A stretch of 64,000 bases of DNA from Cordylochernes scorpioides (taxonomy: Eukaryota > Arthropoda > Arachnida > Pseudoscorpiones > Chernetidae): NCBI GenBank assembly GCA_030710605.1, contig CP092863.1, forward strand, positions 143,126,623 to 143,190,622, read 5' to 3'. Both the position numbers and the translations under genes were made by a program. A model generated the notes under the pieces. That model worked only from the letters and a program-made list of their open reading frames with translations. It had not been told where the DNA came from and did not search any database. Shown here piece after piece: positions 8,493-44,843 of the stretch (position 1 is the stretch's first letter; every line of letters starts with the position of its first letter).

Positions 8493-8672
8493 CAAAATAA
8501 CATGAAAACTTTCTCCGTTGATTGTAAATACTAGAAATAAAACGTAAGGAGAAAAGATTTTTTATTAATCAATTAAACGTTCTACAGTGTCGAAGGGCGT
8601 GACTGCCCGAAAGCTTGTCGCACGTTTAATTGATTAATAAAAAATCTTTTCTCCTTACGTTTTATTTCTAGT
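8493..8672. mobile_element. 180-bp hairpin element with 13-bp TSD
   Basis: Block B lacks this segment at the matching site (about 51340), so it is an insertion. It is flanked by the 13-bp repeats ATATATTTATAAT (8480-8492) and ATATATTTATCAT (8673-8685), which differ at one base. A 53-bp perfect inverted repeat (8528-8580 and 8622-8674) surrounds a 41-nt loop. The loop (8581-8621) carries a small GGGC/GCCC hairpin followed by CGAAAGCTTG, the hammerhead-like signature seen in the PLE repeats. There is no coding capacity, so mobilisation in trans is inferred. Confidence 0.75.
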
Positions 8673-8933
8673 ATATATTTATCATATAGTTACAGTCTAT
8701 ATATATATATATATATATTAAAAAACGAAATAAAAAAATATAAGATAAAAAGATCAGGTGTTGAAATCAATATTAAAAATGGAATATAAAACGAAAATTA
8801 AAATTATACCGCGAATGTTTCTTTTAAAAATCGAAATTTATTTTCAAAGAGAAATAGCGACATTTCTAACTTTGAGGATGAGGTATGGAAAGGTGAAACA
8901 TGAAGAGTAATGGAGAACGGAAAAATAAAAAGT

Positions 8934-9006
8934 GTCCAGGGGCGGGAATCGAACCCACACCCTTCTGCTTACCGGGCAGGTGCCTTGTCCACTCGGCTAC
9001 CCTGGA
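8934..9006 (-). tRNA. tRNA-Thr-like gene (GGT), array unit 1
   Basis: The minus strand folds as a 73-nt cloverleaf: a perfect 7-bp acceptor (TCCAGGG/CCCTGGA), D arm GCC/GGC, anticodon arm CTGC-CCGGTAA-GCAG and T arm GTGGG-TTCGATT-CCCGC. The A box (TAGCCGAGTGG) and B box (GGTTCGATTCC) are intact, and a T5 Pol III terminator follows within 4 nt. Anticodon position 34-36 is GGT (Thr), but residue 33 is C instead of the near-universal U, pair 27-43 is mismatched, and eukaryotes normally use AGT for Thr. It is probably a transcribable Pol III module rather than a working tRNA. Confidence 0.7.
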
Positions 9007-9222
9007 CGTATTTTTCCGTTCATAACTTATATTTAAAGTAACATTTAAAATACAATATAACGCGGCTGATGATTGTAAAACGAAAATTAAAATTATACCG
9101 CGAATGTTTCTTTTAAAAATCGAAATTTATTTTCAAAGAGAAATAGCGACATTTCTAACTTTGAGGATGAGGTATGGAAAGGTGAAACATGAAGAGTAAT
9201 GGAGAACGGAAAAATAAAAAGT

Positions 9223-9295
9223 GTCCAGGGGCGGGAATCGAACCCACACCCTTCTGCTTACCGGGCAGGTGCCTTGTCCACTCGGCTACCCTGGA
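9223..9295 (-). tRNA. tRNA-Thr-like gene (GGT), array unit 2
   Basis: Sequence-identical to unit 1, exactly 289 bp downstream, with the same C33 and T-run terminator. Confidence 0.7.
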
Positions 9296-9511
9296 CGTAT
9301 TTTTCCGTTCATAACTTATATTTAAAGTAACATTTAAAATACAATATAACGCGGCTGATGATTGTAAAACGAAAATTAAAATTATACCGCGAATGTTTCT
9401 TTTAAAAATCGAAATTTATTTTCAAAGAGAAATAGCGACATTTCTAACTTTGAGGATGAGGTATGGAAAGGTGAAACATGAAGAGTAATGGAGAACGGAA
9501 AAATAAAAAGT

Positions 9512-9584
9512 GTCCAGGGGCGGGAATCGAACCCACACCCTTCTGCTTACCGGGCAGGTGCCTTGTCCACTCGGCTACCCTGGA
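9512..9584 (-). tRNA. tRNA-Thr-like gene (GGT), array unit 3
   Basis: Identical to unit 1 with a 289-bp period. Confidence 0.7.
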
Positions 9585-9800
9585 CGTATTTTTCCGTTCA
9601 TAACTTATATTTAAAGTAACATTTAAAATACAATATAACGCGGCTGATGATTGTAAAACGAAAATTAAAATTATACCGCGAATGTTTCTTTTAAAAATCG
9701 AAATTTATTTTCAAAGAGAAATAGCGACATTTCTAACTTTGAGGATGAGGTATGGAAAGGTGAAACATGAAGAGTAATGGAGAACGGAAAAATAAAAAGT

Positions 9801-9873
9801 GTCCAGGGGCGGGAATCGAACCCACACCCTTCTGCTTACCGGGCAGGTGCCTTGTCCACTCGGCTACCCTGGA
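9801..9873 (-). tRNA. tRNA-Thr-like gene (GGT), array unit 4
   Basis: Identical to unit 1 with a 289-bp period. Confidence 0.7.
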
Positions 9874-10089
9874 CGTATTTTTCCGTTCATAACTTATATT
9901 TAAAGTAACATTTAAAATACAATATAACGCGGCTGATGATTGTAAAACGAAAATTAAAATTATACCGCGAATGTTTCTTTTAAAAATCGAAATTTATTTT
10001 CAAAGAGAAATAGCGACATTTCTAACTTTGAGGATGAGGTATGGAAAGGTGAAACATGAAGAGTAATGGAGAACGGAAAAATAAAAAGT

Positions 10090-10162
10090 GTCCAGGGGCG
10101 GGAATCGAACCCACACCCTTCTGCTTACCGGGCAGGTGCCTTGTCCACTCGGCTACCCTGGA
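10090..10162 (-). tRNA. tRNA-Thr-like gene (GGT), array unit 5
   Basis: Identical to unit 1 with a 289-bp period. It is the last complete minus-strand unit before the inversion point. Confidence 0.7.
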
Positions 10163-10378
10163 CGTATTTTTCCGTTCATAACTTATATTTAAAGTAACAT
10201 TTAAAATACAATATAACGCGGCTGATGATTGTAAAACGAAAATTAAAATTATACCGCGAATGTTTCTTTTAAAAATCGAAATTTATTTTCAAAGAGAAAT
10301 AGCGACATTTCTAACTTTGAGGATGAGGTATGGAAAGGTGAAACATGAAGAGTAATGGAGAACGGAAAAATAAAAAGT

Positions 10379-10430
10379 GTCCAGGGGCGGGAATCGAACC
10401 CACACCCTTCTGCTTACCGGGCAGGTGCCT
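10379..10430 (-). pseudogene. truncated tRNA-Thr-like gene at the inversion junction
   Basis: The T arm and anticodon arm are present, but the 5' part (D arm and 5' acceptor strand) is missing because the sequence switches strand at 10430/10431. Confidence 0.8.
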
Positions 10431-10460
10431 AGGGTGTGGGTTCGATTCCCGCCCCTGGAC
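10431..10460 (+). pseudogene. tRNA-Thr-like 3' fragment at the inversion junction
   Basis: Only the variable region, T arm and 3' acceptor strand remain, fused tail-to-tail to the fragment on the other strand. The fusion inside the tRNA is the centre of the array palindrome. Confidence 0.8.
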
Positions 10461-10675
10461 ACTTTTTATTTTTCCGTTCTCCATTACTCTTCATGTTTCA
10501 CCTTTCCATACCTCATCCTCAAAGTTAGAAATGTCGCTATTTCTCTTTGAAAATAAATTTCGATTTTAAAAGAAACATTCGCGGTATAATTTTAATTTTC
10601 GTTTTACAATCATCAGCCGCGTTATATTGTATTTTAAATGTTACTTTAAATATAAGTTATGAACGGAAAAATACG

Positions 10676-10748
10676 TCCAGGGTAGCCGAGTGGACAAGGC
10701 ACCTGCCCGGTAAGCAGAAGGGTGTGGGTTCGATTCCCGCCCCTGGAC
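10676..10748 (+). tRNA. tRNA-Thr-like gene (GGT), plus-strand unit
   Basis: Same 73-nt sequence as unit 1 in the opposite orientation, with intact A and B boxes and a T5 run downstream. Confidence 0.7.
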
Positions 10749-10965
10749 ACTTTTTATTTTTCCGTTCTCCATTACTCTTCATGTTTCACCTTTCCATACC
10801 TCATCCTCAAAGTTAGAAATGTCGCTATTTCTCTTTGAAAATAAATTTCGATTTTTTAAAAGAAACATTCGCGGTATAATTTTAATTTTCGTTTTACAAT
10901 CATCAGCCGCGTTATATTGTATTTTAAATGTTACTTTAAATATAAGTTATGAACAGAAAAATACG

Positions 10966-11038
10966 TCCAGGGTAGCCGAGTGGACAAGGCACCTGCCCGG
11001 TAAGCAGAAGGGTGTGGGTTCGATTCCCGCCCCTGGAC
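10966..11038 (+). tRNA. tRNA-Thr-like gene (GGT), plus-strand unit
   Basis: Same 73-nt sequence. The unit spacing here is 290 bp because a flanking T run has one extra base. Confidence 0.7.
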
Positions 11039-11227
11039 ACTTTTTATTTTTCCGTTCTCCATTACTCTTCATGTTTCACCTTTCCATACCTCATCCTCAA
11101 AGTTAGAAATGTCGCTATTTCTCTTTGAAAATAAATTTCGATTTTTAAAAGAAACATTCGCGGTATAATTTTAATTTTCGTTTTACAATCATCAGCCGCG
11201 TTATATTGTATTTTAAAAATGGAATAT

Positions 11228-12283
11228 CCTGGCCTTTTTATCTTTTATTTTTTTATTTCGTTTTTTAATGTGCTAAGCGTATTTACGCAAGTTTGGCCTT
11301 TAATACCCATTTCTTGGTTTTTCGGGAAACCATTGGGACCAAAATATCTTTTTTGGTCGCAATGGTTCAGCCTACTCCACGCTGACGAGCGCCAAAAGCG
11401 CGAAACGCGTTCGTGGATGGGTTTTCTTGATTTATCAAGAAATTGGGTTGGCCAAATATCAGGGAACAGGCTAAATCAATGTTTAGTTGATTTCTGTTCT
11501 ACCAGATGGCGCTCTGCCTTCTGTAAAGCACATGTGCTCCTGGTCAGGATATGCCATTTTCAATATTGATTTTAACACCTGATCTTTTTATCTTTTTTTT
11601 TATTTCGTTTTTTTAATGTGCTAAGCGTATTTACGCAAGTTTGGCCTTAAATACCCATTTCTTGGTTTTTCGGGAAGCCATTTGGATCAAAAAATATTTT
11701 TGGTCGCAATGGTTAAGCCTACTCCACGTTGACGAGCGCCAAAAGCGCGAAACGCGTTCGTGGATGGCTTTTCTTTATTTATCAATAAATTGGGTTGGCC
11801 AAATATCAGGGAAAAGGCTAAATCAATGTTTAGTTGATTTCTCTTCTACCAGATGACGCTCTGCCTTCTGTAAAGCACATGTGCTCCTGGTCAGGATATG
11901 CCATTTTTAATATTGATTTTAACACCTGATCTTTTATCTTTTATTTTTTTTATTTCGTTTTTTAATGCGCTAAGCGTATTTACGCAAGTTTGGCCTTAAA
12001 TACCCATTTCTTGGTTTTTCGGGAAACCATTGGGATCAAAAAATATTTTTGGTCGCAATGGTTCAGCCTACTCCACGCTGACGAGCGCCAAAAGCGCGAA
12101 ACGCGTTCGTGGATGGCTTTTCTTGATTTATCAAAAAATTGGTTTGGCCAAATATCAGGGAACAGGCTAAATCAATGTTTAGTTGATTTCTGTTCCACAA
12201 GATGGCGCTCTGCCTTCTGTAAAGCACATGTGCTCCTGGTCAGGGTATGCCATTTTAATATATATATATATATATAGCCATGC
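11228..12283 (+). repeat. 350-bp satellite, three units, block A
   Basis: Three units with periods of 347 and 349 bp, judged from the recurring GGTCGCAATGG at 11355, 11702 and 12051. Each encodes a similar open frame (LLHADERQKRETRSW) with no known domain and no consistent start, so a coding role is unlikely. Each carries a near match to the CTCF consensus (CTACCAGATGGCGCT at 11499-11513), degraded in the second unit. Block B has three matching units at 51441-52495. Confidence 0.8.
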
Positions 12284-12806: not shown

Positions 12807-12894
12807 TTAATTTCTTTTCAAAGTTTGAATTCAAAGACTTCGCCGATATGTTCCCTTCTCTAACTTCAAGCAAACGTTCCTCCTCCTCATCCTT

Positions 12895-14540
12895 AACCAT
12901 CCGTCCCCTGCTCATCCTCAAACATCCGTCCCCCTGCTCATCCTCAACCATCCGTCTCCCTGCTCATCCTGATGCATCCGTCCCCCTCCTCATCCTCAAC
13001 CATCCGTCCCCTACTCATCCTCATGGATCCGTCCCTCTCACCATCCTCAACCATCCGTCCCTCTCACCATCATCAACCATCCGTTCCTTCTCACCATCTT
13101 CAACCATCCGTCCCTCTCACCATCCTCAACCATCCGTCCCTCTCACCATCCTGCAGCATCCGTTCCTCTCCTCATCCTCAAACCTCCGTTCCTCCTCATC
13201 CTCAAACCTCCGTTCCTCTCCTCATCCTCAAACCTCCGTTCCTCCTCCTCCTCTAGAATCCGTCCTTCTTACCATCTTCAACCATCCGTCCTCTCCTCAA
13301 CATCCTCAATAATCCATCCTCTCCTCAACATCCCAAACATCCGTCCTCTCCTCACCATCTTCAACCATCCGTCCTCTCCTAAACATCCTCAAACATCCGT
13401 CCTCTTCTCAACATATTCAACCATCCGTCCCCCTGCTCATCCTCAAAAATCCGTCCTCTCCTCATCTTCAACCATCCGTCCTCTCCTCATCCTCAAATAT
13501 CCGTCCTCTCCTCATCATCAAGCATCCGTCCCTCTCCTTATCCAAGCATCTGTGTTCCTCCTCAATCTCCATAATTCTGTCCTCCTCAATTTCAGTCAAC
13601 CGCCCTCCTTCCGAAAATACGCTTCTCATCTTCCTCCGTATTCAGAAATCCGTTACCTCTCCAATTTCAACCATCAGTCCCTCTCACAAACCTCAACTCA
13701 TCCGTTCCTCTCCCAAACTTCACTCATCCGTTCTCCTTACCATCCTCAAGCATCCACCCCCCTCCTCTTCCTCAAGCATAAATCCTCCTCCCCCCTTCTC
13801 ATCCTCAAGCATCCGTCCCCCTCCTCATCTTCAAACATCCATCCCCCTCCTCATCCTCAAGCATCCGTCCCCCTCCTCTTCCTCAAGCATCGATACCCCT
13901 CCCCCTACTCATCCTCAAGCATCCGTCCCCCTCCTCATCCTCAAGCATCCGTCTCTTTCCTCATCCTCAAGCATCCGTCCCTCTGCTCATCCTCAAGCAT
14001 CCGTCCCCCTCTCTTCCTCAAGCATCCGTCCCACTCCTCATCCTCAAATATCCGTCCCACTACTCATCCTCAAATATCCGTCCCCCTCCTCATCCTCAAG
14101 CATCCGTCCCTCTGCTCATCGTCAAGCATCCGTCCCCCTCCTCATCCTCAATCATCCGTCCCCCTCCTCATCCTCAAGCATCCGCCCCCCTCCTCATCCT
14201 CAAACATCCGTCCCTCTGCTCATCCTCAAGCATCCGTCCCTCTGCTCATCCTCAAGAATCCTTCCCACTCCTCTTCCTCAAGCATCCGTTCCTCTGCTCA
14301 TCCTCAAGCATCCGTCCCCCTCCTCATCCTCAAGCATCCGTCCCCCTCCTCTTCCTCAAGCATCCGTCCCCCTCCTCATCTTCAAGCATCCGTCCCCCTC
14401 CTCATCCTCAAGCATCCGTCCCCCTCCTCATACTCAAGCATCCGTCCCTCTCCTCATCCTCAACCATCCAACCTCCTGCCCAACCTCATCTATCCGTCCT
14501 CTTTTCTAATCTCAACCATCCGTCTCCTCCCCAAGTTTGG
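12895..14540. repeat. 26-bp CT-rich minisatellite, unit copy I
   Basis: Long array of units with CATCCGTCCCCCTCCTCATC followed by CTCAAG. A stop-free 26-bp unit is read through all three frames, so a 26-residue peptide repeat appears in each and yields frames of up to 344 codons. Low-copy variants at 13270-13730 include short unique stretches. Confidence 0.9.
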
Positions 14541-14800: not shown

Positions 14801-15576
14801 ATCCGTCATCACCCTAACCTCAACCATCCGTCTCATCTCCCCAACCTCAACCATAATGAATAAGATAAATTAATAAATGATTCTAAATCCTATGAACAAG
14901 TGAAATTATTATAAACCCTAAGATTATAATAAGAGTAATCATCGTGATTGGTCATACACGTGTAGATGCATCTCTCTTGATTGTGTACTGTAATTTGCTG
15001 ATGGCTTGTGCCATCTTTCGGCATAAATATCAACTTATACTAAATATATAATTTATAAACTAAATATATAATTAATTTCTTATTTTATAGATGCACTATA
15101 TAATTTATAGTTATATTTTCAAGATATATTTTTCTTTCAATTTATCAAACTGTTCAAAGTACAATTCAACCTTTGCACTATTATTTCATAAAGACATTTC
15201 AATTCATATATTTAATCTATGTAATGCGTTTTTATTCATATGAACAACATCCTCTTGCAGTTTTACAATAATATCTAATTTATAAAATTAAATTTGAAGT
15301 CCTGAGATATCATTCAACCAGCATGTATCATCCACCAAGCATGTAATTTTCAAAATTTTGTTTTCAAACAGCAATAATGTAGTATATTTTTCTCTCAATA
15401 TATAATAAGTATTTAAAATATGTATATAATAATTTATATATATAAATAGTATTTATTATTAAGTTGTTAACGTGATAATCCTGTTGAAGGACTGACAAAT
15501 CCGAAAGTTTTAAAATAAAAAGTTGCATAAGAAACTCAACCATTGAAGCTTCATTTATTTTATAATAATATCTAAT
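14801..15576. other. AT-rich unit backbone, copy I
   Basis: Non-coding sequence shared with 30966-32150 and 56956-57720. No gene seen. Confidence 0.6.
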
Positions 15577-15663
15577 TTCTGAACGGTAAAATCTTCCCAA
15601 TTACATGCTTGGTAAGGACAAAAATTCAGGAGATGAGTTTCTTTCAACACTTTATTAGGACAT

Positions 15664-15696
15664 CAAGCTTTCGGGCACAGCGTGGCCCTTCTACAG
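15664..15696 (-). ncRNA. hammerhead-like motif in PLE repeat
   Basis: The minus strand reads CTGTAGA, a stem GGGC/GCCC, then CGAAAGCTTG. The order box-stem-GAAA-palindromic AGCT matches the minimal hammerhead motifs known from PLE flanking repeats, which are thought to act as dimers. The first box differs from CUGANGA at its fourth base (U for A), so cleavage may be lost. Confidence 0.5.
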
Positions 15697-16033
15697 GATC
15701 AAATGTATAAGAAAAATGATACACTATATACACGAAGAATAAATCAGCATATGTATTATTAGAATTAGTTGTAAAATTTTTAAAATAATCGGTAATACTT
15801 AGGATTTTTGTTTAAAAAGAATATCGAGACAAAAGCAAATTAATAAAATTTGTTAAGAAGAATAATATACGAATATTACAAGGTATTAAGATAAAAGCGC
15901 AACAAGACTAAAAGGACGTTCCCACGGTTCGACGTAAACTGAGATAAAACCATGAGTATTTAAAAGGCAAAACAGTCCAAAAGGACACTAAAATAAATGA
16001 ACAAAACAGGGAATTCATGGGGTACATCGATGG

Positions 16034-17455
16034 CTATTTATGTAATAAGCTTATATACGGCTCAGGTACATCAATATGTCTGTTTATACTATTATATCTC
16101 AGAGATAGCAAGGCCTCGACACCCAATCTTTTGTGTTTATGTGGTATGTTAGAATAATGTGATCTTGGATCAGTTGTGTTGAAACTATGTCCTGTCTGTG
16201 ATATGTGCTGGACAATAAGTGATTTCGGATCGTTATGTCTGATGTTTCTGTCGTGTTCCTGTATTCTGTCTTTAATGTAACGGCCAGTTTCACCTACATA
16301 AACACTGTCGCAATCGTTGCATTTTATGGAATAAACAGCATTGTTTCTTTGAAGAGTGTTCCGAGGTGTGTTGTCTTTGGTAATAGGGTTCCTTAAGATA
16401 GTGCCTATACTAGGGGTGTTGGAAAAGTAGGTGCGGATGCCGAAGTTCTTTAGTTCTCTAGCTATTTTTATGCTTTGCAAGGAATATGGTATTGTGCAGA
16501 TGGATTTATAGTTGTCATATATCTTGGTGCGGGATGGGTTATGGAAATGCCTTAAAATAAAGTTTTTAGGATAACCAGAGGACATTAAATTTGAAATTAT
16601 GTTATTTGTTTCCTTTTGCTTTGACTCCTCAGTGTTACAGTGGGTATATATTCTCTTGGACAAGGTTCTTACCGTATTGATTTTATGGCTTAATGGGCAG
16701 AAAGATGAGAAGTTTATATACATTGGGTGAAAGGTGGGTTTATAATAGACTTCAGTATTATATCTTTTGCGTGTTTTTGTTATGCGTATGTCCAAAAATG
16801 CCAAAGAGTCACATGTTTCAGTATCGGAAGTAAAGTCTATGTCTTGATAGAAATTATTCAATGTGTTGAGTATATCATTAAAGGCGTTAATTTTGATTAT
16901 AGCAAAGACGTCATCTATGTATCTAGACCAGATTAAAATGTCGTCTGGGAAGATATTAACTATACGTTTATCTATCTTGCGCATCACTATTTCTGAAAGG
17001 GGAGAGGATAATGGGCTACCCATAGGGGTGCCTTTGGTCTGTTTGAAGTAAGCTTGGTTGAATTTGAAAATACTATGGCAAAGACTGATTTTGATAAGTG
17101 CAATGAGTTTGGAAATGGTGTCTGTGGGGCAACCTTGTTCGATTAGAAATTCTGTGGTGCAATCTAGAATAAGCTGGTGGGGGAGACTGGGATATAAATT
17201 AACAACATCGAATGAGACCATGATGGTGCCAGGTGTAACTGTTGTTTGTTGTAACTTACCTATGAAGACAGGAATGGAGGAAATGGTCGTCGGGGAGTCA
17301 CTATCTCTGAGCATCGGGGCCAGTATTTTGGCTAGATAAGTTGCTAACGGAGCTGCAGGGGAGAGGTGGTACGCGATGATGGGTCTTAGTGGGATACCTT
17401 CTTTGTGTAATTTAGGTAGACCGTAAATATAAGCTTTTGACATTATATTGGACAA
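16034..17455 (-). CDS. PLE reverse transcriptase and GIY-YIG endonuclease, C-terminal part
   Basis: A 473-residue frame carries the telomerase-like RT of Penelope elements: YGLPKLHK near residue 11, RPIIA at 24, catalytic Asp in SFDVVNLYPSLP at 83, GTPMGSPLSSP at 142-152 and the catalytic YIDD at 179-182. The C-terminus is a GIY-YIG nuclease (VYSIKC at 374, YVGETGR at 386-392, His401, putative metal-binding Glu447). Together these would prime and extend on genomic DNA during insertion. The frame begins in mid-protein: the N-terminal part lies in another frame at 17478-18356, separated by a probable single-base indel in an A8 run at about 17486-17493. The true start is therefore not the Met at 17455. 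Confidence 0.9.
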   Translation of the reverse strand: MSNIMSKAYIYGLPKLHKEGIPLRPIIAYHLSPAAPLATYLAKILAPMLRDSDSPTTISSIPVFIGKLQQTTVTPGTIMVSFDVVNLYPSLPHQLILDCTTEFLIEQGCPTDTISKLIALIKISLCHSIFKFNQAYFKQTKGTPMGSPLSSPLSEIVMRKIDKRIVNIFPDDILIWSRYIDDVFAIIKINAFNDILNTLNNFYQDIDFTSDTETCDSLAFLDIRITKTRKRYNTEVYYKPTFHPMYINFSSFCPLSHKINTVRTLSKRIYTHCNTEESKQKETNNIISNLMSSGYPKNFILRHFHNPSRTKIYDNYKSICTIPYSLQSIKIARELKNFGIRTYFSNTPSIGTILRNPITKDNTPRNTLQRNNAVYSIKCNDCDSVYVGETGRYIKDRIQEHDRNIRHNDPKSLIVQHISQTGHSFNTTDPRSHYSNIPHKHKRLGVEALLSLRYNSINRHIDVPEPYISLLHK

Positions 17456-17477
17456 AAAATATTTGCATTCTTCGGAA

Positions 17478-18356
17478 CTAATGATTTTTTTTCCTCAGCA
17501 GATTGTTGATTTCTTTTTTAAAAGAAGAGGTTGCGGTATTCTGATCATCTATGGATATGGGGGTAAACGTGTGCGGGTCAACAAGTATTGTGTCCATCTT
17601 GGAAATGTATTCGGATGTGTTCATGATGACTGTAAGTGAACCTTTATCAGATCTAGTGATGGTTATATCTTTGTTCGTTGTTAGTGAGCGCAATACATTT
17701 TTGTTGATTTGGTAGGTATGTTGGGTTTGGTTGTGGTCGCTAAGGACTGTTGCGGTGTGCTGTCTGATTTTAAACTTCTCTTGATGATTTAAGCGGAAAA
17801 TGGAAGATTCAACCCCTGCTATGATTGTTATGGCATCAGCTCTAGCTTGAGGTCTATATTTAAGTCCTTTAGATAATATGTTTATATGCTCTGTAGTAGA
17901 CTGGAAACTAGAGAGATTCACTATTGTTTGTAGGGCATTGTACGGCGCGAGTTTGAAGTTATATTTTCTGGACCAATGTGTTAGTTTCTTATTATGTCTA
18001 GCTGTAATGGTAATATCTTGCTTTTTGATGTTTTCTGTGATTCTTCTAAGAAAATCAGCCATGTCTTGAACTGTTAAACGCATGGACTGGTGAAATAGGA
18101 GGCCTTTAACTGATTTTGTGAGGATACGGATGTGTGAATAGCAACCTTTAGTGCGGGCTCGTAGTAGCTTAAAATGAGTTTCTGTGATGATTTTGGCAGA
18201 GTAGTGATTGCCGATCGGATCTTTCATACGCAAAGATGGAGGAATGAATCCTTGGTTTTCGCATATTTTGTTAAAGGCAAGATGCTTCTTCCATTTTGCC
18301 AACGCAAGTGATTTTTTGAGGAGGTTCTTCATGTAGAAACGTGTATCAGGATTCAT
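17478..18356 (-). CDS. PLE polyprotein, N-terminal part
   Basis: A 292-residue frame starting MNPDTRF. It contains the conserved PLE N-terminal signatures LSKGLKYRP (161-169) and RSDKGSLTVIM (235-245), which precede the RT core in intact elements. It ends right after LLRKKN, where a run of eight A shifts the frame. Reading past the run in the other frame leads directly into 16034-17455. A real mutation or a homopolymer sequencing error would look the same. The Met at 18356 lies 34 bp from the element's upstream edge and is a plausible start. Confidence 0.85.
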   Translation of the reverse strand: MNPDTRFYMKNLLKKSLALAKWKKHLAFNKICENQGFIPPSLRMKDPIGNHYSAKIITETHFKLLRARTKGCYSHIRILTKSVKGLLFHQSMRLTVQDMADFLRRITENIKKQDITITARHNKKLTHWSRKYNFKLAPYNALQTIVNLSSFQSTTEHINILSKGLKYRPQARADAITIIAGVESSIFRLNHQEKFKIRQHTATVLSDHNQTQHTYQINKNVLRSLTTNKDITITRSDKGSLTVIMNTSEYISKMDTILVDPHTFTPISIDDQNTATSSFKKEINNLLRKKNH

Positions 18357-18477
18357 AGTGCGACAAGCAAAATAAAACAGTATTTAAGATTTCTAAACGG
18401 TAAAATCTTCCCAATTACATGCTTGGTAAGGACAAAAATTCAGGAGATGAGTTTCTTTCAACACTTTATTAGGACAT

Positions 18478-18510
18478 CAAGCTTTCGGGCACAGCGTGGC
18501 CCTTCTACAG
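18478..18510 (-). ncRNA. hammerhead-like motif in second PLE repeat
   Basis: Same sequence as 15664-15696, placed at the same offset from the repeat start. Two flanking copies are the arrangement expected for PLE ribozyme-like motifs. Confidence 0.5.
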
Positions 18511-18847
18511 GATCAAATGTATAAGAAAAATGATACACTATATACACGAAGAATAAATCAGCATATGTATTATTAGAATTAGTTGTAAAATTTTTAAAAT
18601 AATCGGTAATACTTAGGATTTTTGTTTAAAAAGAATATCGAGACATAAGCAAATTAATAAAATTTGTTAAGAAGAATAATATACGAATATTACAAGGTAT
18701 TAAGATAAAAGCGCAACAAGACTAAAAGGACGTTCCCACGGTTCGACGTAAACTGAGATAAAACCATGAGTATTTATAAGGCAAAACAGTCCAAAAGAAC
18801 ACTAAAATAAATGAACAAAACAGGGAATTCATGGGGTACATCGATGG

Positions 18848-19767
18848 CTATTTATGTAATAAGCTTATATACGGCTCAGGTACATCAATATGTCTGTTTA
18901 TACTATTATATCTCAGAGATAGCAAGGCCTCGACAACCAATCTTTTGTGTTTATGTGGTATGTTAGAATAATGTGATCTTGGATCAGTTGTGTTGAAACT
19001 TTGTCCTGTCTGTGATATGTGCTGGACAATAAGTGATTTCGGATCGTTATGTCTGATGTTTCTGTCGTGTTCCTGTATTCTTTCTTTAATGTAACGGCCA
19101 GTTTCACCTACATAAACACTGTCGCAATCGTTGCATTTTATGGAATAAACAGCATTGTTTCTTTGAAGAGTGTTCCGAGGTGTGTTGTCTTTGGTAATAG
19201 GGTTCCTTAAGATAGTGCCTATACTAGGGGTGTTGGAAAAGTAGGTGCGGATGCCGAAGTTCTTTAGTTCTCTAGCTATTTTTATGCTTTGCAAGGAATA
19301 TGGTATTGTGCAGATGGATTTATAGTTGTCATATATCTTGGTGCGGGATGGGTTATGGAAATGCCTTAAAATAAAGTTTTTAGGATAACCAGAGGACATT
19401 AAATTTGAAATTATGTTATTTGTTTCCTTTTGCTTTGACTCCTCAGTGTTACAGTGGGTATATATTCTCTTGGACAAGGTTCTTACCGTATTGATTTTAT
19501 GGCTTAATGGGCAGAAAGATGAGAAGTTTATATACATTGGGTGAAAGGTGGGTTTATAATAGACTTCAGTATTATATCTATTGCGTGTTTTTGTTATGCG
19601 TATGTCCAAAAATGCCAAAGAGTCACATGTTTCAGTCTCGGAAGTAAAGTCTATGTCTTGATAGAAATTATTCAATGTGTTGAGTATATCATTAAAGGCG
19701 TTAATTTTGATTATAGCAAAGACGTCATCTATGTATCTAGACCAGATTAAAATGTCGTCTGGGAAGG
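18848..19767 (-). pseudogene. PLE RT/GIY-YIG C-terminal fragment
   Basis: Matches the first PLE from the YIDD-proximal region to the C-terminus. The GIY-YIG motifs are intact, with a few substitutions such as VVEAL for GVEAL at the Glu motif. The RT catalytic region upstream is lost, so it cannot encode a working RT. Confidence 0.85.
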
Positions 19768-20044
19768 TATCACTACTCTGCCAAAATCATCACAGAAACT
19801 CATTTTAAGCTACTACGAGCCCGCACTAAAGGTTGCTATTCGTCTTTGCTAACCTAATTTTCATTATAATCTAATTCTCGCTTCGCGATGGAATTAATTC
19901 ACAATTTAATATGAACCAGCTAATATTGTCCATTTGAAATGGGTTGACAGTTAGAATTTGTGTCTAGATATTGAAAGCCCTACTTTTATAGAATAATTTA
20001 ATACATCTACGCTCTCTATCACAAATAGAATGTTTTAAAACTAG

Positions 20045-21683: not shown

Positions 21684-21754
21684 TGCATCGGCCGGGAATC
21701 GAACCCGGGCCGCCCGCGTGGCAGGCGAGCATTCTACCACTGAGCCACCAATGC
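21684..21754 (-). tRNA. tRNA-Gly (GCC)
   Basis: 71-nt cloverleaf on the minus strand: acceptor GCATTGG with CCGATGC (one G-U pair), A box TGGCTCAGTGG, anticodon loop CTGCCAC giving anticodon GCC, T arm with GGTTCGATTCC, discriminator A and a T9 terminator immediately downstream. It looks structurally sound. It lies inside a repeated module, so it may be an amplified copy rather than the main cellular gene. Confidence 0.85.
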
Positions 21755-21986: not shown

Positions 21987-22331
21987 TGTTACATCATGAT
22001 TAATGACGTATTTCTTATATTATTTTTAATATATTTGAAATTTAAATTATATATTTATTTATTTTTATATAAAATATTCTATGATATTTATTTTAAACAC
22101 AGATTATTTAGATTGTCATCATTTGTATTTAGGTACACGTGTGACTTCACTGCTCTCTTTGATGTGAAAAAAATAAATAAAGTATTCTGGAGGCTACTAA
22201 AAGTAGACTTATCTCATTATTCCCTTTTATAAATTTGTAGGATGGTTGAAACACGCTCTGGTAAGATGCAAGACACGTCTGAGGAGAGAATCAAGGCTGA
22301 AGAGTCTGCCAAGCCACAACCTGGTGCAACA
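21987..22331 (+). repeat. 5' LTR
   Basis: 345 bp, starting TGTTACATCATG and ending GGTGCAACA. It contains TATAAA at 22229-22234 and the gag start codon at 22242. Following it, TGGTAGAGATG at 22334 is the only candidate primer-binding site, and it lies inside the gag frame. Confidence 0.92.
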
Positions 22332-23405
22332 ATTGGTAGAGATGCTAGTTCCGACCCAGTTGTCCTGAATCCCAACATCGACATCCCCAAGTATGATGGA
22401 ACGGAAGACCCTCGCCCATGGATTGAATCTCTTGAAGAAATTGGCTTCCTGTATCATTGGGCAGACTACATTATCTCTCGTTATGCTGCCATGAATATGA
22501 TTGGTAGCGCCAAAACCTGGCTGAACCTACACAAGATAAGTTTCACCAGCTGGGAAAATTTCAAGAGCCGCCTAATTGAGGATTTTGCCTCAGACGCCAA
22601 CAAAGAAGAAATTAAGATGAGACTAAGCAGGATGCAACAGTGGAATGAACCTGCAATCAGGTTCGCAGAGGATATCCTTGTACTGTGCAACAAGGTCGAC
22701 CCCCAAATGGAAGAAGAGACTAAAATAAACTGGGTTATTGGAGGGTTAAAGAAAGAATACTCTTTTGCCCTTCACCTAAACCCTCCTAAAAATACCAATG
22801 AACTCTTAGAAATTTGTAAAAAGCTGGATTTGTTCGAAAAGAATTACCAAGAACGTGCAGAAAAATCAAAAGCTCTATATAATGGACCACGCTCTCCTCG
22901 TCCCCATCATCAAGATCAATGGAAGAATGCTACGTCGCTCAGAAGACCATATCAGAACACCTCCAAGCCCCAGGCCCCCGCTCCGAGGTACTACCAGAAC
23001 ACCTCCAAGCCCCAGGCCCCCACTCCGAGGTACTACCAGAACAAGCCTCTGCCCCAGGTATCTGCCCCTAGACGATCTTACACTCCCAATCCTGAGCCAA
23101 AACCGGTCTACCCAAGTAAAACCTACAATAAGAATCCAAATTCAAATAGGAATAGGACAGAAGACGGGAGACCAATATGTTTCAAGTGTAACAAGCCAGG
23201 ACACGTAGCGCGGTATTGCAGAGTCAAGTTTGTGAGGATCGTAGAAGAGGACCCCTCAGTTTCCCAAGACAAGAGTCAAGAAAATCTTCAAATGGACGAA
23301 AGAAAAGATTATACACGGCCTCGCCTCTATGCGGATGTTTGTAATGACACACAAACGAATATTCCTACACGGAATAGATATTCCGTGTTGGAAGATTTAA
23401 ACTAA
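22242..23405 (+). CDS. gag: Gag-like capsid/nucleocapsid protein
   Basis: 387 residues, starting MVETRSGK inside the LTR. The middle resembles retrotransposon capsid (IPKYDGTEDPRPWIESLEE, then KTWLN). Two tandem 14-residue Pro-rich repeats (YQNTSKPQAPAPRY type) lie near residues 235-265, and a CCHC zinc knuckle (CFKCNKPGHVARYC) sits at 313-326 for RNA binding. The start in the LTR is supported by a diverged solo LTR (34435-34804) that keeps the same N-terminal frame. The frame ends with TTA AAC TAA, directly on the frameshift heptamer, so most product should stop here and a minority continue into pol. Confidence 0.88.
   Translation: MVETRSGKMQDTSEERIKAEESAKPQPGATIGRDASSDPVVLNPNIDIPKYDGTEDPRPWIESLEEIGFLYHWADYIISRYAAMNMIGSAKTWLNLHKISFTSWENFKSRLIEDFASDANKEEIKMRLSRMQQWNEPAIRFAEDILVLCNKVDPQMEEETKINWVIGGLKKEYSFALHLNPPKNTNELLEICKKLDLFEKNYQERAEKSKALYNGPRSPRPHHQDQWKNATSLRRPYQNTSKPQAPAPRYYQNTSKPQAPTPRYYQNKPLPQVSAPRRSYTPNPEPKPVYPSKTYNKNPNSNRNRTEDGRPICFKCNKPGHVARYCRVKFVRIVEEDPSVSQDKSQENLQMDERKDYTRPRLYADVCNDTQTNIPTRNRYSVLEDLN
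23396..23402 (+). promoter_or_regulatory. -1 programmed ribosomal frameshift heptamer
   Basis: T TTA AAC read in the gag frame matches the X XXY YYZ slippery rule, followed at once by the gag stop TAA. Slipping back one base enters the protease frame, which is open from 23378. Weak nested stems (23416-23420 with 23426-23430, and 23408-23411 with 23439-23442) could act as the stimulator. Confidence 0.85.
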
Positions 23406-23872
23406 GTGTCGCGCCTGATTCCTTCAATCAAAGCAAGTCGACCATAAATGTAATTAGAAAGTTGGACCCTAGGTACAAAATTAATATTAATGTGGACAAG
23501 ATAGGGTTATGCGAAGCTTTGATTGATACAGGCGCCGATCTTTCAGTGGTCGACCTAAGGACAGCACTTTTTGCTGGCCGTGAAATAAATAGTCTCACTA
23601 AAACATGTTCAGGACCCGATGGAAAAAAATTAGATATGGTAGGTAGCATTATTTTAGATTTAAAAATTGATGACACTGAATTATCCCACGAATTTGTAGT
23701 AATGGACGCGCATCTACGAACTCTTATTCTTGGACGAGATTTCCTTAAAAAAATGAATGCTAAAATTGATTGTAAACGAGAAACGATAAAATATAATTTG
23801 ATGAGTAATCATGAAGTAAGCAATTATGATCTAAAAAAAAATAAAGAGCACTACAGATACCGTTATACCTAA
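23402..23872 (+). CDS. pol: aspartic protease region of pol
   Basis: Entered by -1 frameshift from gag. It carries the retroviral-type protease active site ALIDTGADLSVV (LxDTGA) and the later LILGRDFL, the expected spacing for a gypsy protease. It stops at 23870 only because the frame changes after an A9 run (23833-23841); the continuing pol frame is open from about 23847. The break is a +1 change relative to the pol frame, either real or a homopolymer error. Confidence 0.85.
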   Translation, partial: LSVAPDSFNQSKSTINVIRKLDPRYKININVDKIGLCEALIDTGADLSVVDLRTALFAGREINSLTKTCSGPDGKKLDMVGSIILDLKIDDTELSHEFVVMDAHLRTLILGRDFLKKMNAKIDCKRETIKYNLMSNHEVSNYDLKKNKEHYRYRYT

Positions 23873-26060
23873 ACTATCTATTAAATTGATTAGGGCCTCA
23901 ATAGAAGCAGAGGATGGGGAATATGTCATCGAAGAGAACAACAAAATGACTCAAACAAATGGTCTTCGATTGGCAAGAAGTTTGCTTACTGTCACGGATA
24001 AGAAAACTCATATCTGGATAACGAACCCTTATCCTCGACCTTTAAAAATCATGAAAGACCAAACATTGGCTTATGGAAGTCTTCCTGCAGAGGTAAATTT
24101 TATAGAGAATATAGAGAAGCAGAATGAAAATGACGAAATACAATTTCAAATAAACAAAAATTTATCATTTAAAGAACAAGAGAGGTTAAAACAAATTTTG
24201 GCCAAGTATACTGATTTGTTCTCATCAAGGTTAGGCAGGACCAATTTGGCAAAACATCAGATTCATACAGAAGACGCAAAACCGATAAAGCACAAGCCTT
24301 ACAGGGTAAGTGCTAAGGAACGAACCATCATAAAAGATCAAATAGACGAGATGCTTGAAGAAGGAATAATTAGACCATCTTCAAGTCCCTGGTCCTTTCC
24401 CGTTATATTGGTCAAAAAACGAGATGGCAAATACAGATTTTGTGTGGATTACAGGAAATTAAATGAAGTAACAGTGAAGGATGTTTATCCAATCCCAAGA
24501 ATTGATGATGTAATGGATTCTCTCCAAGGATCCAAGTACTTCTCAGCAATAGATCTCAAATCGGGATATTGGCCAGTCGAAATTGAAGAGAGAGACAAAG
24601 AGAAGACGGCTTTCACTACGGCACATGGGTTATATGAATTCAACGTGATGCCTTTTGGACTTTGTAACGCGCCTGCTACCTTTGAGAGAAATATGGAGAA
24701 TATGCTTGGAAATCTGAGATGGCAAATTTGTTTGTGTTATCTGGATGATGTTATCATATATAGCCCGGATTTTCCAACGCACCTCAAAAGACTCGAAGCT
24801 GTTTTTAGATGTTTTCGTGAATCTAATTTAAGATTAAACGACAAAAAATGCCGATTTGTTTTTGAAGAATTGGAGATTCTCGGCTATATAACGAGCAAAC
24901 ATGGTATAAAACCCGCGGAACATAACATCAAAGCTATCAGAAATTTCCCTCGGCCCACAAAGGTCAAAGAAGTACAATCATTTTTGGGAATGTGCTCATA
25001 TTATAGAAAATTTATCAAAGATTTCTCAAAAATTGCTGACCCTTTGACCAACCTTATTAAGAAAAGTGTATCATTTACCTGGACAGAAAGGCAAGAGGAA
25101 GCGTTTCAAACCCTAAAAACAGCACTATTAAGTCCACCAATCTTAGGGCACTTCAATCCAAATGCGCCTACTTATATTCATACTGATGCGTCCAACATCG
25201 GCATAGGTGCAACTCTTGTCCAAGACATCGGTGGTGAAGAGAAGGTGATCTCATATTTGAGTCGTACCCTGAGTAAAGCGGAGCAAAATTATTCAACCAC
25301 TGAAAAAGAATGTCTGGCCGTTGTCTGGTCAATGTCAAAATTACGACCCTACCTTTATGGAAGACACTTTAAAATAGTAACAGACCATCACGCCTTATGC
25401 TGGCTCAAAAACTTGAAGGACCCAACAGGTCGATTGGCAAGATGGGCATTGAAAATTCAAGAATATGACTTCGATATAATACATAAATCGGGAAAGAAGC
25501 ATCTGGACGCCGATGGCTTATCTAGGGGACCCTTACCAGAAACTGATTGGGATGAGGATTTTGAAAGGCTATTTTTAAATCAAATAACAGACGAAGAGGA
25601 TAAATTTATCGAAAGTGTTAAGAAAAACCTTAATGGAAGCAGGCGATCAATTACGCAAAACTTTAAAGAAGAAGATGGATGCCTCTTTAAGAAAAACCCG
25701 AACCCTGAAGGCAGGGCGTGGTTGCTTGTGGTTCCAGAGAATAAAAAGAGAGAAATTATGAAAGAATATCACAATCATATGTCGAATGGCCATCTGGGCG
25801 TCGCCAGAACCATGTACCGAATAAAGAGTAAATACTTTTGGCCATCCATGCTAAAGGATGTCTCAGAATTCGTTAAGACGTGTCACCTTTGCCAAAGTAG
25901 GAAAGGCTCAAATCAATTACCTTCTGGACTACTACAGCCCATCCCCCCAGCCAACTTTCCTTTCGAAAGAATTGGAATTGACTTTTTTGGTCCACTGCCA
26001 TCTACGAAAAACAGGAAAAAATGGATAATCGTGCTGACGGACTACTACGTGCAAGATTAA
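23847..26060 (+). CDS. pol: reverse transcriptase, RNase H and N-terminal integrase
   Basis: Internal part of pol in its second frame; the Met at 23886 is not the natural start. RT shows YPIPRIDD, DLKSGYWPVEI, MPFGLCNAPATFE and the catalytic YLDD near residue 285 counted from 23886. RNase H follows with HTDASNIGIGA, TEKECLAVVW and TDHHALCWL. The integrase zinc region is an HHCC finger (HNHMSNGHLG to CHLCQ), followed by the first core Asp in GIDFFGPLP and VLTDYY. The frame then hits a deletion junction and stops at 26058, leaving the core incomplete. Confidence 0.9.
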   Translation, partial: STTDTVIPKLSIKLIRASIEAEDGEYVIEENNKMTQTNGLRLARSLLTVTDKKTHIWITNPYPRPLKIMKDQTLAYGSLPAEVNFIENIEKQNENDEIQFQINKNLSFKEQERLKQILAKYTDLFSSRLGRTNLAKHQIHTEDAKPIKHKPYRVSAKERTIIKDQIDEMLEEGIIRPSSSPWSFPVILVKKRDGKYRFCVDYRKLNEVTVKDVYPIPRIDDVMDSLQGSKYFSAIDLKSGYWPVEIEERDKEKTAFTTAHGLYEFNVMPFGLCNAPATFERNMENMLGNLRWQICLCYLDDVIIYSPDFPTHLKRLEAVFRCFRESNLRLNDKKCRFVFEELEILGYITSKHGIKPAEHNIKAIRNFPRPTKVKEVQSFLGMCSYYRKFIKDFSKIADPLTNLIKKSVSFTWTERQEEAFQTLKTALLSPPILGHFNPNAPTYIHTDASNIGIGATLVQDIGGEEKVISYLSRTLSKAEQNYSTTEKECLAVVWSMSKLRPYLYGRHFKIVTDHHALCWLKNLKDPTGRLARWALKIQEYDFDIIHKSGKKHLDADGLSRGPLPETDWDEDFERLFLNQITDEEDKFIESVKKNLNGSRRSITQNFKEEDGCLFKKNPNPEGRAWLLVVPENKKREIMKEYHNHMSNGHLGVARTMYRIKSKYFWPSMLKDVSEFVKTCHLCQSRKGSNQLPSGLLQPIPPANFPFERIGIDFFGPLPSTKNRKKWIIVLTDYYVQD

Positions 26061-26070
26061 ACATTGCTTC

Positions 26071-26712
26071 ACAACGAGCTATCATCCCCAGACTAATGGA
26101 TTGACAGAGCGGTTAAATAGAACATTGATCAATATGCTCAGTATGTATGTGAACACTGATCAGAAAAATTGGGACGAAATACTCCCATTCATCACTCACG
26201 CTTACAATACTACAATTCAGGAAACCACAGGATATTCTCCCTTTTTCCTGATGTTTGGAAGAGAACCCACGTCTCTTTTGGACGACAGGAATATCTCGGT
26301 GGACATTGACAAGGACGATTATGATGAATACATAAAACATCACTTAGACAAAATAAACAGAACAAGAAAATTAGTTATTAACAACACAATAAAGACTCAA
26401 GAAAGAATGAAAAAGAACTATGACAAGAAACACATGGAAAGAAGCTACGAACCAGGAGAATTAGTAGCAGTTTGGACACCAATTAGGAAAATAGGAAAGT
26501 GTGAGAAACTACTGAGAAAATATTTTGGCCCATATAGAATATTAAAGAAGCTATCTAACGTAAATTACTTAATTGAGCCAAAAGATAATCCTGGCCAAGA
26601 CCCATTGATTGTCCATGTCTCAAGACTCAAACCCTATTTTGAGAGAATTGATGAGGTAACTCACGAGGACGTGACGACCTCTGGAGAGGGGGAAGTGTTA
26701 CATCATGATTAA
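26071..26712 (+). CDS. pol: integrase C-terminal part with GPY/F-type tail
   Basis: Opens in a new frame with SYHPQTNGLTERLNRTL, which holds the last catalytic Glu of the DDE triad, then continues to a GPY/F-type module (KYFGPYRILKKL). Compared with the usual gypsy spacing of about 60 residues, the segment with the second catalytic Asp is missing, so integrase activity is not expected. The stop TAA at 26710 lies 15 nt inside the 3' LTR. Confidence 0.88.
   Translation, partial: TTSYHPQTNGLTERLNRTLINMLSMYVNTDQKNWDEILPFITHAYNTTIQETTGYSPFFLMFGREPTSLLDDRNISVDIDKDDYDEYIKHHLDKINRTRKLVINNTIKTQERMKKNYDKKHMERSYEPGELVAVWTPIRKIGKCEKLLRKYFGPYRILKKLSNVNYLIEPKDNPGQDPLIVHVSRLKPYFERIDEVTHEDVTTSGEGEVLHHD
26685..26695 (+). 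promoter_or_regulatory. polypurine tract
   Basis: AGAGGGGGAAG ends directly at the first base of the 3' LTR, the expected plus-strand primer position. It lies within the last codons of pol. Confidence 0.85.
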
Positions 26713-27051: not shown

Positions 27052-27341
27052 TATAATAATATATATTTATATTATATTTTTTATAAATTAGTTTTAAAAA
27101 TTGTAAAAAAAAAATGCATCGGCCGGGAATCGAACCCGGGCCGCCCGCGTGGCAGGCGAGCATTCTACCACTGAGCCACCGATGAAATGAAAAAAAGAAA
27201 TAGCCAAAAATACTAATCAAAATGTAGCCAAAAATTTTCCTCAGGTTTATAAAAAGCGACATGCAAAATTTGGAACCAATTGGTTCAGTAGTTTTTGAGT
27301 TTATCGCGAAACAGACAGACAGACTTTTATATATATAGAGA
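27052..27341 (-). repeat. second tRNA-Gly module with Helitron-like 5' end
   Basis: On the minus strand the module begins TCTCTATATATATAAAAGTC followed by a CTGT microsatellite, as many Helitrons do, and ends just beyond the tRNA T run. No CTAG end is found on the tRNA side. Confidence 0.5.
27115..27185 (-). tRNA. tRNA-Gly (GCC), second module, imperfect acceptor
   Basis: Same as 21684-21754 except that position 1 is T instead of G, which breaks the first acceptor pair (T against C). Upstream sequence is shortened relative to the first module. Probably a pseudogene. Confidence 0.65.
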
Positions 27342-29149: not shown

Positions 29150-29394
29150 GATTCATACCTAGTAAACATCCACGTGAAGTGGCGAGTGTTTGTATAAGAC
29201 AGATTAGTGTGAACAAATTTATTATTATATATTTTAAATTTATTTCTATTGAAAGATTTGGCCACACCAACCAGCCTTATACAAACCCTCGCAACTCGTG
29301 CATCACGTGGTTAATTTCTTTTCAAAGTTTGAATTCAAAGACTTCGCCGATATGTTCCCTTCTCTAACTTCAAGCAAACGTTCCTCCTCCTCAT

Positions 29395-30650
29395 CCTTGA
29401 CCATCCGTCCCCTGCTCATCCTCAAACATCCGTCCCCCTGCTCATCCTCAACAATCCGTCCCCCTGCTCATCCTGATGCATCCGTCCCCCTCCTCATCCT
29501 CAACCATCCGTCCCCTGCCCATCCTCATGCATCCGTCACTCTCACCATCCTCAACCTTCCGTCCCTCTCACCATCCAACAGCATCCGTTCCTCTCCACAT
29601 CCTCAAACATCCGTTCCTCGTCATCCTCTAGAATCCGTTCTTCTTACCATCTTCAACCATCCGTCCTCTCCTCAACATCCTCAATAATCCGCCCTCTCCT
29701 CAACATCCCAAACATCCGTCCTCTCCTCACCATGTTCAACCATCCGTCCTCTCCTAAACATCCTCAAACATCCGTCCTCTCCTCAACATCTTCAACCATC
29801 CGTCCCCCTGCTCATCCTCAAATATCCGCCCTCTCCTCATCTTCAACCATCCGTCCTCTCCTCAATTCATGCATCTGTCTTCCTCCTTAATCTCCATAAT
29901 TCTGTCCTCAATTTCAGTCAACCGTCCTCCTTCCGAAACTACCCTTCTCATCTTCCTCCTTATTCAGAAATCCGTTACCTCTCCAATTTCAACCTCTCAC
30001 AAACCTCAACTCATCCGTTCCTCTCCCAAACTTCACTCATCCGTTCTCCTCACCATCCTCAAGCATCCATCCCCTTCCTCATCCTCAAGCATCCGTCCCC
30101 CTCCTCATCCTCAAGCATCCGTCCCTCTGCTCATCCTCAAGCATCCGTCCCCCTCCTCATCCTCAAACATCCGTCCCCCTCCTCATCCTCAAGCATCCGT
30201 CCCCCTCCTCATCCTCAAGCATCCGTCCCTCTGCTCATCCTCAAGCATCCGTCCCTCTGCTCATCCTCAAGCATCCGTCCCCCTCCTCTTCCTCAAGCAT
30301 CCGTCCCTCTGCTCATCCTCAAGCATCCGTCCCCCTCCTCATCCTCAAACATCTGTCCCCCTCCTCATCCTCAAGCATCCGCCCCCCTCCACATCCTCAA
30401 ACATCCGTCCCTCTGCTCATCCTCAAGCATCCGTCCCCCTCCTCATCCTCAAGCATCCGTCCCTCTGCTCATCCTCAAGCATCCGACCCCTCCTCATCCT
30501 CTAACATCCGTCCCCCTCCACATCCTCAAAAATCCGTCCCTCTGCTCATCCTCAAGCATCCGTCCCTCTCCTCATCCTCAACCATCCAACCTCCTGCCCA
30601 ACCTCTTCTATCCGTCCTCTTTTCTAATCTCAACCATCCGTCTCCTCCCC
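29395..30650. repeat. 26-bp CT-rich minisatellite, unit copy II
   Basis: Shorter version of the array at 12895-14540. Confidence 0.9.
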
Positions 30651-40094: not shown

Positions 40095-40430
40095 AGTTGT
40101 ACCTTTTAGAACGACATTTGAAAATTATCCGGAATGTGTTTCTTTGAACGAAACATAGAAATTCATTTTAAGGATAAATAACGATTATTTCAAACCTTAG
40201 GGATGAAGTATGAAAGGATGAATTGTGAAGAGAATAATGATAACTTCCCATCCCTAGACACTTTATTTTTCCGTTTATCATTACTCTTCACAATACATCC
40301 TTTCATACATCATCCCTAAGGATAAAAATAATTGTTATTTCTCCTTAAAATAAATTTCGATTTTTCTTTAAAAAAAACACATGCGGGATAATTTTCGAAT
40401 TGTCGTTCTACAAAATAGTTTATATTTTTG
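40095..40430. repeat. diverged inverted pair of the tRNA-Thr-like unit flanks
   Basis: Left and right parts are the flanking sequence of the 289-bp unit in opposite orientation (GGGATGAAGTATGAAAGGAT against ATCCTTTCATACATCATCCC). The tRNA body is lost except for CCCTAGACACTTTATTTTTC. It is an older relative of the 8788-11212 array. Confidence 0.6.
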
Positions 40431-44743: not shown

Positions 44744-44843
44744 NNNNNNNNNNNNNNNNNNNNNNNNNNNNNNNNNNNNNNNNNNNNNNNNNNNNNNNNN
44801 NNNNNNNNNNNNNNNNNNNNNNNNNNNNNNNNNNNNNNNNNNN
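44744..44843. other. assembly gap, 100 N
   Basis: Exactly 100 N, the usual scaffold placeholder of unknown true length. Block B begins in mid-gene directly after it. Confidence 0.98.

Follow-up and report, generated by a model that had tools for sequence, protein, structure and literature searches.

The stretch analysed here, hereafter the window, comprises 64,000 nucleotides of the pseudoscorpion Cordylochernes scorpioides (GCA_030710605.1, contig CP092863.1, positions 143,126,623 to 143,190,622), and at 8788-11212 it contains an inserted array of 289-bp units with a tRNA-like gene, arranged in two inverted arms. Both ends of this insert were confirmed to the base. As a sequence-only reading of the locus had claimed, the insert is bounded by an exact 15-bp target site duplication (TSD), TTAAAAATGGAATAT, with copies at 8773-8787 and 11213-11227, and the first bases of the right copy also match the unit as priming microhomology. 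The one further occurrence of TTAAAAATGGAATAT in the window, at 51425-51439 in a second block (block B), is a single target copy with contiguous flanks, and thus bears out the empty site that had been claimed there. Block B is 98 % identical over 6.5 kb to block A, in which the array lies, and directly follows a gap of 100 N at 44744-44843, thus it may be paralogous or, alternatively, an allelic copy that was placed in tandem; it shows the unoccupied target either way.

The minus arm (8788-10430) consists of 5.7 identical 289-bp units, and the plus arm (10431-11212) of 2.7 units. In unit coordinates, which are counted in the tRNA sense from the first base of the tRNA, the outer end of the minus arm is at position ~220, after TTTTCGTTTT (start site 1), and that of the plus arm is at start site 2, position 248 without and 253 with the bases common to the TSD. 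The arms meet head to head at 10430/10431 inside two truncated tRNA copies, at unit positions 23 and 45, in agreement with the claim that two such pieces join the arms. Alignment of the plus with the minus arm gave 785 identical columns out of 788, the differences being two changes in an A/T run and one substitution. The previously counted five minus-strand and two plus-strand full units correspond to the tRNAs predicted by ARAGORN, but because the A/T run varies, some plus-arm copies deviate from 289 bp.

On the minus strand, ARAGORN predicted an intact tRNA-like gene, Thr(GGT), at 8932-9007 and further copies at 9221-9296, 9510-9585, 9799-9874 and 10088-10163, and on the plus strand two genes at 10675-10750 and 10965-11040; each of the seven intact genes scored 58.4 bits against the Rfam tRNA model. 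Nearly all tRNAs have U at position 33. By our own reading, the anticodon loop of the tRNA-like gene, CCGGTAA, has C at this position, the acceptor stem can be lengthened to 8 bp and the gene is followed by TTTTT, and the unconstrained minimum-energy fold is not a cloverleaf. A working tRNA was therefore rejected as a candidate, and a role in translation is doubtful. A- and B-box-like motifs, TAGCCGAGTGG and GGTTCGATTCC, are intact in the gene when read against the box consensus of RNA polymerase III (pol III). The gene probably contributes a promoter or a signal for processing, which could be by RNase P/Z, but it may also be a passenger. Since the T-run lies right behind the gene, transcription by pol III should end within the unit, which has a GC content of 37 %.

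The target of the insertion is itself a repeat array with two head-to-head arms, built of hammerhead-bearing, retrozyme-like units. Its short minus arm (8717-8787, minus strand), the left one, received the tRNA array, and its plus arm (11235-12261, plus strand) holds ~2.9 units of ~350 bp with hammerheads at 11366-11432, 11713-11778 and 12062-12127, which match the Rfam family HH9 with E-values from 5e-5 to 2e-4, below the gathering score. The same hammerhead array is found without the tRNA insert in block B at 51380-52481, again head to head, with a minus arm at 51380-51442 and a plus arm from 51448.

Exact copies of the 74-nt tRNA were found 3,738 times (1,938 + 1,800) in the 2.62-Gb genome and the reversed pattern, used as control, not once, which together with tandem-repeat scores of 3288 and 1551 for the two arms excludes a chance origin of the array. 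A DNA search with the whole 289-bp unit, by a method that skips very common words, gave no match; a 25-mer of the unit had no match among viral contigs, and a 19-mer had one among prokaryote contigs, in Halobacillus. The first 100 of the 3,738 places, all on one contig, form 37 clusters, which by extrapolation corresponds to ~1,400 arrays genome-wide. Together with the window array, 31 of these 37 clusters (19 and 12 in two batches) were aligned against the unit and segmented, giving a sample of 32 arrays that is biased towards copies with intact tRNA on one contig. A second list covers 100 of the 130 places of a subfamily variant (124A>G), which form 34 clusters on 15 contigs, and four extra arrays (L072-L075), located on other contigs, were fetched via another variant. 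An old, diverged two-armed copy of the 289-bp element is also present in the window (40104-40239 on the minus, then 40245-40413 on the plus strand), 74-77 % identical to the unit; both of its matches end at unit position 224, and no TSD is visible by eye.

TSDs of 11-18 bp were identified in 26 of the 32 arrays, 25 of them perfect, and when flanks were swapped between loci the same threshold was passed in 8 of 96 trials. Under a stricter threshold, 24 of the 32 real arrays passed compared with one of the 96 swapped-flank trials. The 21 TSDs taken for base composition have 83 % A+T, compared with 64 % in the window. At 42 ends, a mean of 2.52 nt of the target matched the next bases of the unit, compared with 0.41 at random positions and 0.65 when the two end classes were swapped. 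At the junctions, the arms overlap by up to 8 bp or are separated by as many as 15 bp of filler, and at the array ends that were read there was no poly(A) or simple tail, the unit sequence passing directly into the TSD. The added controls support the TSDs and the unit distances given below; what they weaken is only the hairpin predicted at one start site.

All strand switches between neighbouring copies (within 1.5 kb) run minus then plus: 8 of 8 in the first list, 18 of 18 in the second, and 25 distinct ones over both, one array being present in both lists. Among the 32 arrays, 23 are two-armed and every one of these is minus|plus, as are L072-L075 throughout. The outer ends of the two-armed arrays fall into two narrow classes, 24 of the 46 lying within unit positions 210-231 and 22 within 247-270, with one end of each class in 22 of the 23 arrays, whereas the 46 inner ends are evenly spread (Rayleigh p 0.70, compared with 3e-18 for the outer ends). 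When bases in common with the TSD are left out of account, ends are most frequent at position 220, which follows TTTTCGTTTT, and at 250-252, within or following TTGTATTTTAA, with ~31 nt between the two. The extra arrays have outer ends at 228/253 (L073), 242/220 (L074) and 251/221 (L075), and L072 has one end at 221, the other being beyond the fetched stretch. The remaining nine arrays are one-armed and end at the same two positions. The search for monomer insertions with the same ends, which the sequence-only reading had put forward as a check, found L037, L046 and L060, one-armed insertions of about one unit with perfect TSDs and the same start sites.

The arms of an insertion resemble each other as much as the units within an arm do. 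Over the 135 units of the 32 arrays, the mean unit distance was 0.0074 within arms (402 pairs), 0.0048 between arms (300 pairs) and, for units of different insertions, 0.0171 (8,187 pairs). The pairs of the first two classes come mostly from L042, and without it the values were 0.0037 (98 pairs), 0.0031 (108 pairs) and 0.0169 (4,897 pairs). Array-specific variants run through whole arrays: each of the 12 units of L054 has 124A>G and 287T>A, and each of the 32 of L042 has 117T>G; 99T>C with 174T>A is present in every covered unit of both arms of L062, as are 213T>A with 260T>G in L056 and a 22-bp deletion in L073. In 7 of the 23 two-armed arrays, a fixed substitution is absent from all other arrays of the 32. 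We considered such private variants as proof of a bottleneck of one unit, but a check weakened this argument, since 124A>G occurs 130 times genome-wide and a 33-mer with 213T>A nine times (exact matches); every covered unit of L056 and L075 has the latter, as do single units of L072-L074. The variants thus mark sub-lineages and are by themselves no proof that a single unit was copied.

Uniform arrays favour one-unit templates. On the other hand, 45A>T in L062 and 142G>A in L033 are restricted to the unit that is outermost in each arm, and L074 has two unit types mixed in the same outer-to-inner order in both arms, in different numbers, which favours a mixed concatemer or template jumps over a pure one-unit circle. 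The array-specific variants common to both arms, the two end positions and the priming-type microhomology together support what had been proposed from the window array, namely that a multimer was inserted in one step from an RNA template. The further proposal of a circular or concatemeric RNA intermediate holds as far as the RNA-templated multimer is concerned; a circle is possible, and a linear concatemer fits the arrays as well. Gene conversion between arms could also be a source of their likeness.

The strand order, the two end sites and the target features recall the published signature of Penelope-like elements. According to the accessible text of PMC11167929, both strands of AT-rich DNA are cut and then extended by the purified Penelope-like protein of the green anole, whose reverse transcription sets in at two neighbouring positions within the RNA, mostly in an AC-rich stem-loop, and the stretch between these positions is the genomic 'tail' of 30-40 bp. 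For rotifer Penelope copies, the available part of PMC3846280 describes a pLTR in inverted orientation, TSDs of 8-10 bp and a tail of 31 bp that may be present at one end, and calls head-to-head the most frequent form. The 289-bp arrays share with Penelope (Penelope/Poseidon) the head-to-head inverted copy, the end difference of ~31 nt, the short TSD, the AT-rich target and, in the reading proposed here, a probable extension of both target strands from putative starts in an AC-rich stretch; they differ from it in the tRNA-like gene, in lacking protein-coding sequence (the unit is too short for reverse transcriptase (RT) and GIY-YIG) and in that both arms may contain many units. Taking the footprint of the insertions as a guide, a Penelope-like helper is inferred. 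A Penelope-like element is located in the window at 15575-19841 (minus strand), partially tandem with 99.3 % identical repeats, and its open reading frame (ORF) with RVT_1 and GIY-YIG domains (16034-19786) lies ~4 kb from the tRNA array; this element is head-to-head as well, with a minus arm up to 19770 and a 73-bp plus arm at 19769-19841. A protein search with part of this ORF gave no match at E<=0.001. In a literature search, which subscription papers mostly lay outside, we recognised no paper on head-to-head retrozyme or tRNA arrays with Penelope ends.

We propose, with good confidence, that each array arises in one step, when a Penelope-like enzyme copies a single tRNA-sense RNA, multimeric or circular, with both target strands as primers. 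The array would be a single insertion of a non-autonomous retroelement with a tRNA-like gene in its 289-bp unit. A Penelope-like (GIY-YIG) enzyme would make staggered cuts, 11-18 bp apart, in the two target strands, and each exposed 3' end would pair with A-rich bases at one of two sites on the tRNA-sense RNA, within or just 3' of the AC-rich stretch. Both ends would be extended by reverse transcription across several units, and the two cDNAs would then be joined head to head by end joining. The template may be a circular RNA of 289 nt that is copied in several rounds, or else a linear, concatemeric transcript of a parent array.

Several observations weigh against this proposal. Six of the 32 arrays have no TSD (L033, L035, L055, L057, L059 and L063), nine have one arm only, both ends of L055 are in the first class, one end of L074 is at 242, and ends in L047, L051 and L062 are up to ~17 nt off the usual positions. 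At ACAATCATCAG, or ACAATCACAAG in the old copies, start site 1 occupies the loop of a hairpin predicted for the template strand, CGCGG/CCGCG, which is no more stable than shuffled sequences (z -0.77; 36 of 200 as stable), so that support for the hairpin is reduced to one compensatory pair in old copies, TGCGG/CCGCA compared with CGCGG/CCGCG, based on few sequences. Target microhomology is present at both array ends, whereas the start of the Anolis enzyme is described as not homologous to the target in the accessible text of PMC11167929. The two outer ends of the window Penelope element are ~250 nt apart on the element instead of ~30, no TSD was seen adjacent to it, and the 289-bp unit shares only short matches with this single element, the best being 12 nt exact.

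The comparison with retrozymes made in the sequence-only reading stands for the integration pattern and fails for the ribozyme, which is absent from the 289-bp unit. Animal non-LTR (long terminal repeat) retrozymes, as described in the available part of PMC7229834, carry a type I hammerhead in each unit and form dispersed, low-GC tandem repeats of 150-450 bp with TSDs >4 bp, and linear and circular monomer RNAs are reported from tissue in the same text. The 289-bp unit is similar in that it forms low-GC, dispersed tandem units within this size range with TSDs of 11-18 bp, but it contains no credible hammerhead and carries a tRNA-like gene, thus by definition it is not a retrozyme. Of the 46 Rfam matches at E<=10, none to a hammerhead family fell on a 289-bp unit, whereas the adjacent ~350-bp units match HH9 three times. 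A hammerhead-like skeleton, CGCGG-CTGATGA..GAAA..CCGCG, is present on the strand opposite to the template and recurred in 4 of 20,000 shuffles, a frequency that refers to a skeleton defined after it had been seen; by our reading its stems II and III do not form. In two relatives with 76-80 % identity (L033 5268-5510 and L039 6094-6280), the core is missing and the AC-rich stretch and pairing stem are kept. A hammerhead in the 289-bp unit was rejected on these grounds, i.e. no Rfam match, the opposite strand and two relatives without the core, and the AC-rich region may rather be read as a start-site element than as a ribozyme. A further hammerhead-like string, CTGACGAGGACAAAAGCTTTTTGTCGAAA, was found at 41617 of the window by pattern only.

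The hammerhead arrays of this genome follow similar rules. The 28-nt hammerhead core occurs 4,076 times, and in the first 100 places all 12 strand switches were minus then plus, two of the 12 resembling copies of one locus. Nine loci were compared, eight fetched and the one in block B, and in seven of them the ends are at ~184-189 and ~220-243 of ~348, ~47 nt apart; L064 and L070 each have one end elsewhere. No TSD was found at L064, L066 and L070, and several of the other loci lie in TA repeats and are hard to judge. At L066 (G000:C1:61652500-61654200), several hammerhead-repeat arms adjoin one another, with a minus arm 13 bp after a plus arm, and the middle pair of the neighbouring arms was counted for its end positions. 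The extra minus arm is probably a second insertion beside the first, and arms of different insertions can thus lie plus then minus. A link between animal retrozymes and Penelope has been proposed from shared hammerheads and co-occurrence, as the accessible texts of PMC7229834 and PMC7761336 put it, and the orientation rule together with the two-site rule in seven of nine loci supports this link.

Among other origins of the arrays, twin priming by a long interspersed nuclear element (LINE) comes nearest. Here a LINE enzyme would copy a concatemer, and the second target strand would prime internally and invert the 5' part; the same head-to-head order, TSDs and microhomology joints would result, as in twin priming of LINE-1. 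In twin priming, however, the second strand primes at arbitrary internal sites, whereas in these arrays the second site has a fixed distance of ~31 nt to the first and either end may carry either site; with 23 of the 32 arrays two-armed and no poly(A) or simple tail at the ends read, we regard twin priming as unlikely. Still less probable is a small insertion followed by tandem growth of each arm in place through unequal exchange, although such growth does occur. L042/L043 (G000:C1:19818500-19836000), the longest array seen, has 32 units with one variant set in both arms, and its variant blocks recur with a period of 7 and of 5 units in one arm, and of 3 units in the other, from which we conclude that this array has grown in place, in line with the earlier caution that later amplification could not be excluded. 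One-unit insertions exist, and within the window array, units of the minus arm differ less among themselves (0.0002) than from the plus arm (0.0010), a comparison that depends on three changes only. Against growth in place as the general route, each variant of the 12-unit array L054 is either shared by every unit of the two arms or limited to a single one, and the distance within arms is not below that between arms, with or without L042.

The two remaining alternatives leave RNA aside. Tandem and inverted arrays with microhomology joints can arise when extrachromosomal circles of tandem tRNA genes, or products of palindromic break repair, are captured at a staggered break, but such a DNA route predicts neither two fixed outer positions with target pairing at both nor a single orientation in all two-armed arrays examined, and we consider it very improbable. 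A false inverted join made in the repeat during assembly, which the 100-N gap and the near-duplicate blocks of the window might suggest, has hardly any likelihood in view of the perfect TSDs with different flanks at many loci, the swapped-flank control and the same array form on 15 contigs.

The 289-bp arrays were also compared with other small retroelements with RNA genes. Short interspersed nuclear elements (SINEs) derived from tRNA, typically single units whose poly(A) or simple 3' tail is shared with a LINE, resemble them in the internal A- and B-box-like motifs, the TSDs and the presumed dependence on the enzyme of a partner; the arrays differ in being mostly multi-unit and two-armed and in that no simple 3' tail was seen, and no search for LINE similarity was made. 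The TRIMp3 elements Helenus, Ajax and Cassandra are, in the available text of PMC10886601, non-autonomous LTR retroelements with a small-RNA gene that form tandem arrays in one family. The likeness to the 289-bp arrays lies in a short non-autonomous retroelement carrying a small-RNA gene, and the differences are the absence of an LTR form, the inverted arms and the longer TSDs of 11-18 bp. TRIM and other LTR elements have TSDs of 4-6 bp.

Elsewhere in the window, a near-perfect fold-back element at 8525-8677 in block A has 62-nt arms that are 95 % complementary with 29 nt between them, and by reading it is missing from the corresponding site in block B (~51350). The motif in its loop, GAAGGGC..GCCCGAAAGCTTG, recurs in the Penelope repeats (15664-15694 and 18478-18508) and, in similar form, at 8348 and 51207. 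In a Ty3/gypsy-like element at 22233-26712, RT, RNase H and integrase-zinc-binding domains are present in open pieces. Large minisatellites with a period of ~26 bp (TCAAGCATCCGTCCCCCTCCTCATCC) are found at 12866-14469, 29370-30587, 54948-56529 and 62457-64000, and reverse-complement stretches lie close to three of the four blocks. tRNA-Gly(GCC)-like genes are located at 21684-21754, 27114-27186 and 60231-60300, the first two also being matched by Rfam.

As for the wider relationship of the two repeat types, we tentatively suggest that the 289-bp units may be ribozyme-free analogues of retrozymes, in which the tRNA-like gene would replace the hammerhead in circle-making and, with the help of a Penelope-like enzyme, both cut target strands would serve as primers on the circle and be extended around it in opposite directions, an entry that hammerhead retrozymes would share. 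If this is true, a head-to-head tandem array would be written in one step from one small RNA circle. The entry of animal retrozymes into chromosomes has so far been open, Penelope helpers having been proposed earlier in what is accessible of PMC7229834 and PMC7761336. In this genome, a hammerhead repeat and a ribozyme-free tRNA repeat both have a footprint like that of the Penelope enzyme in vitro, and this footprint gives a sequence-only test usable on other genomes. Inverted and tandem 'satellite' arrays would thereby be explained as direct insertion products, and the arrays offer RNAs with predicted start sites for biochemical assay.

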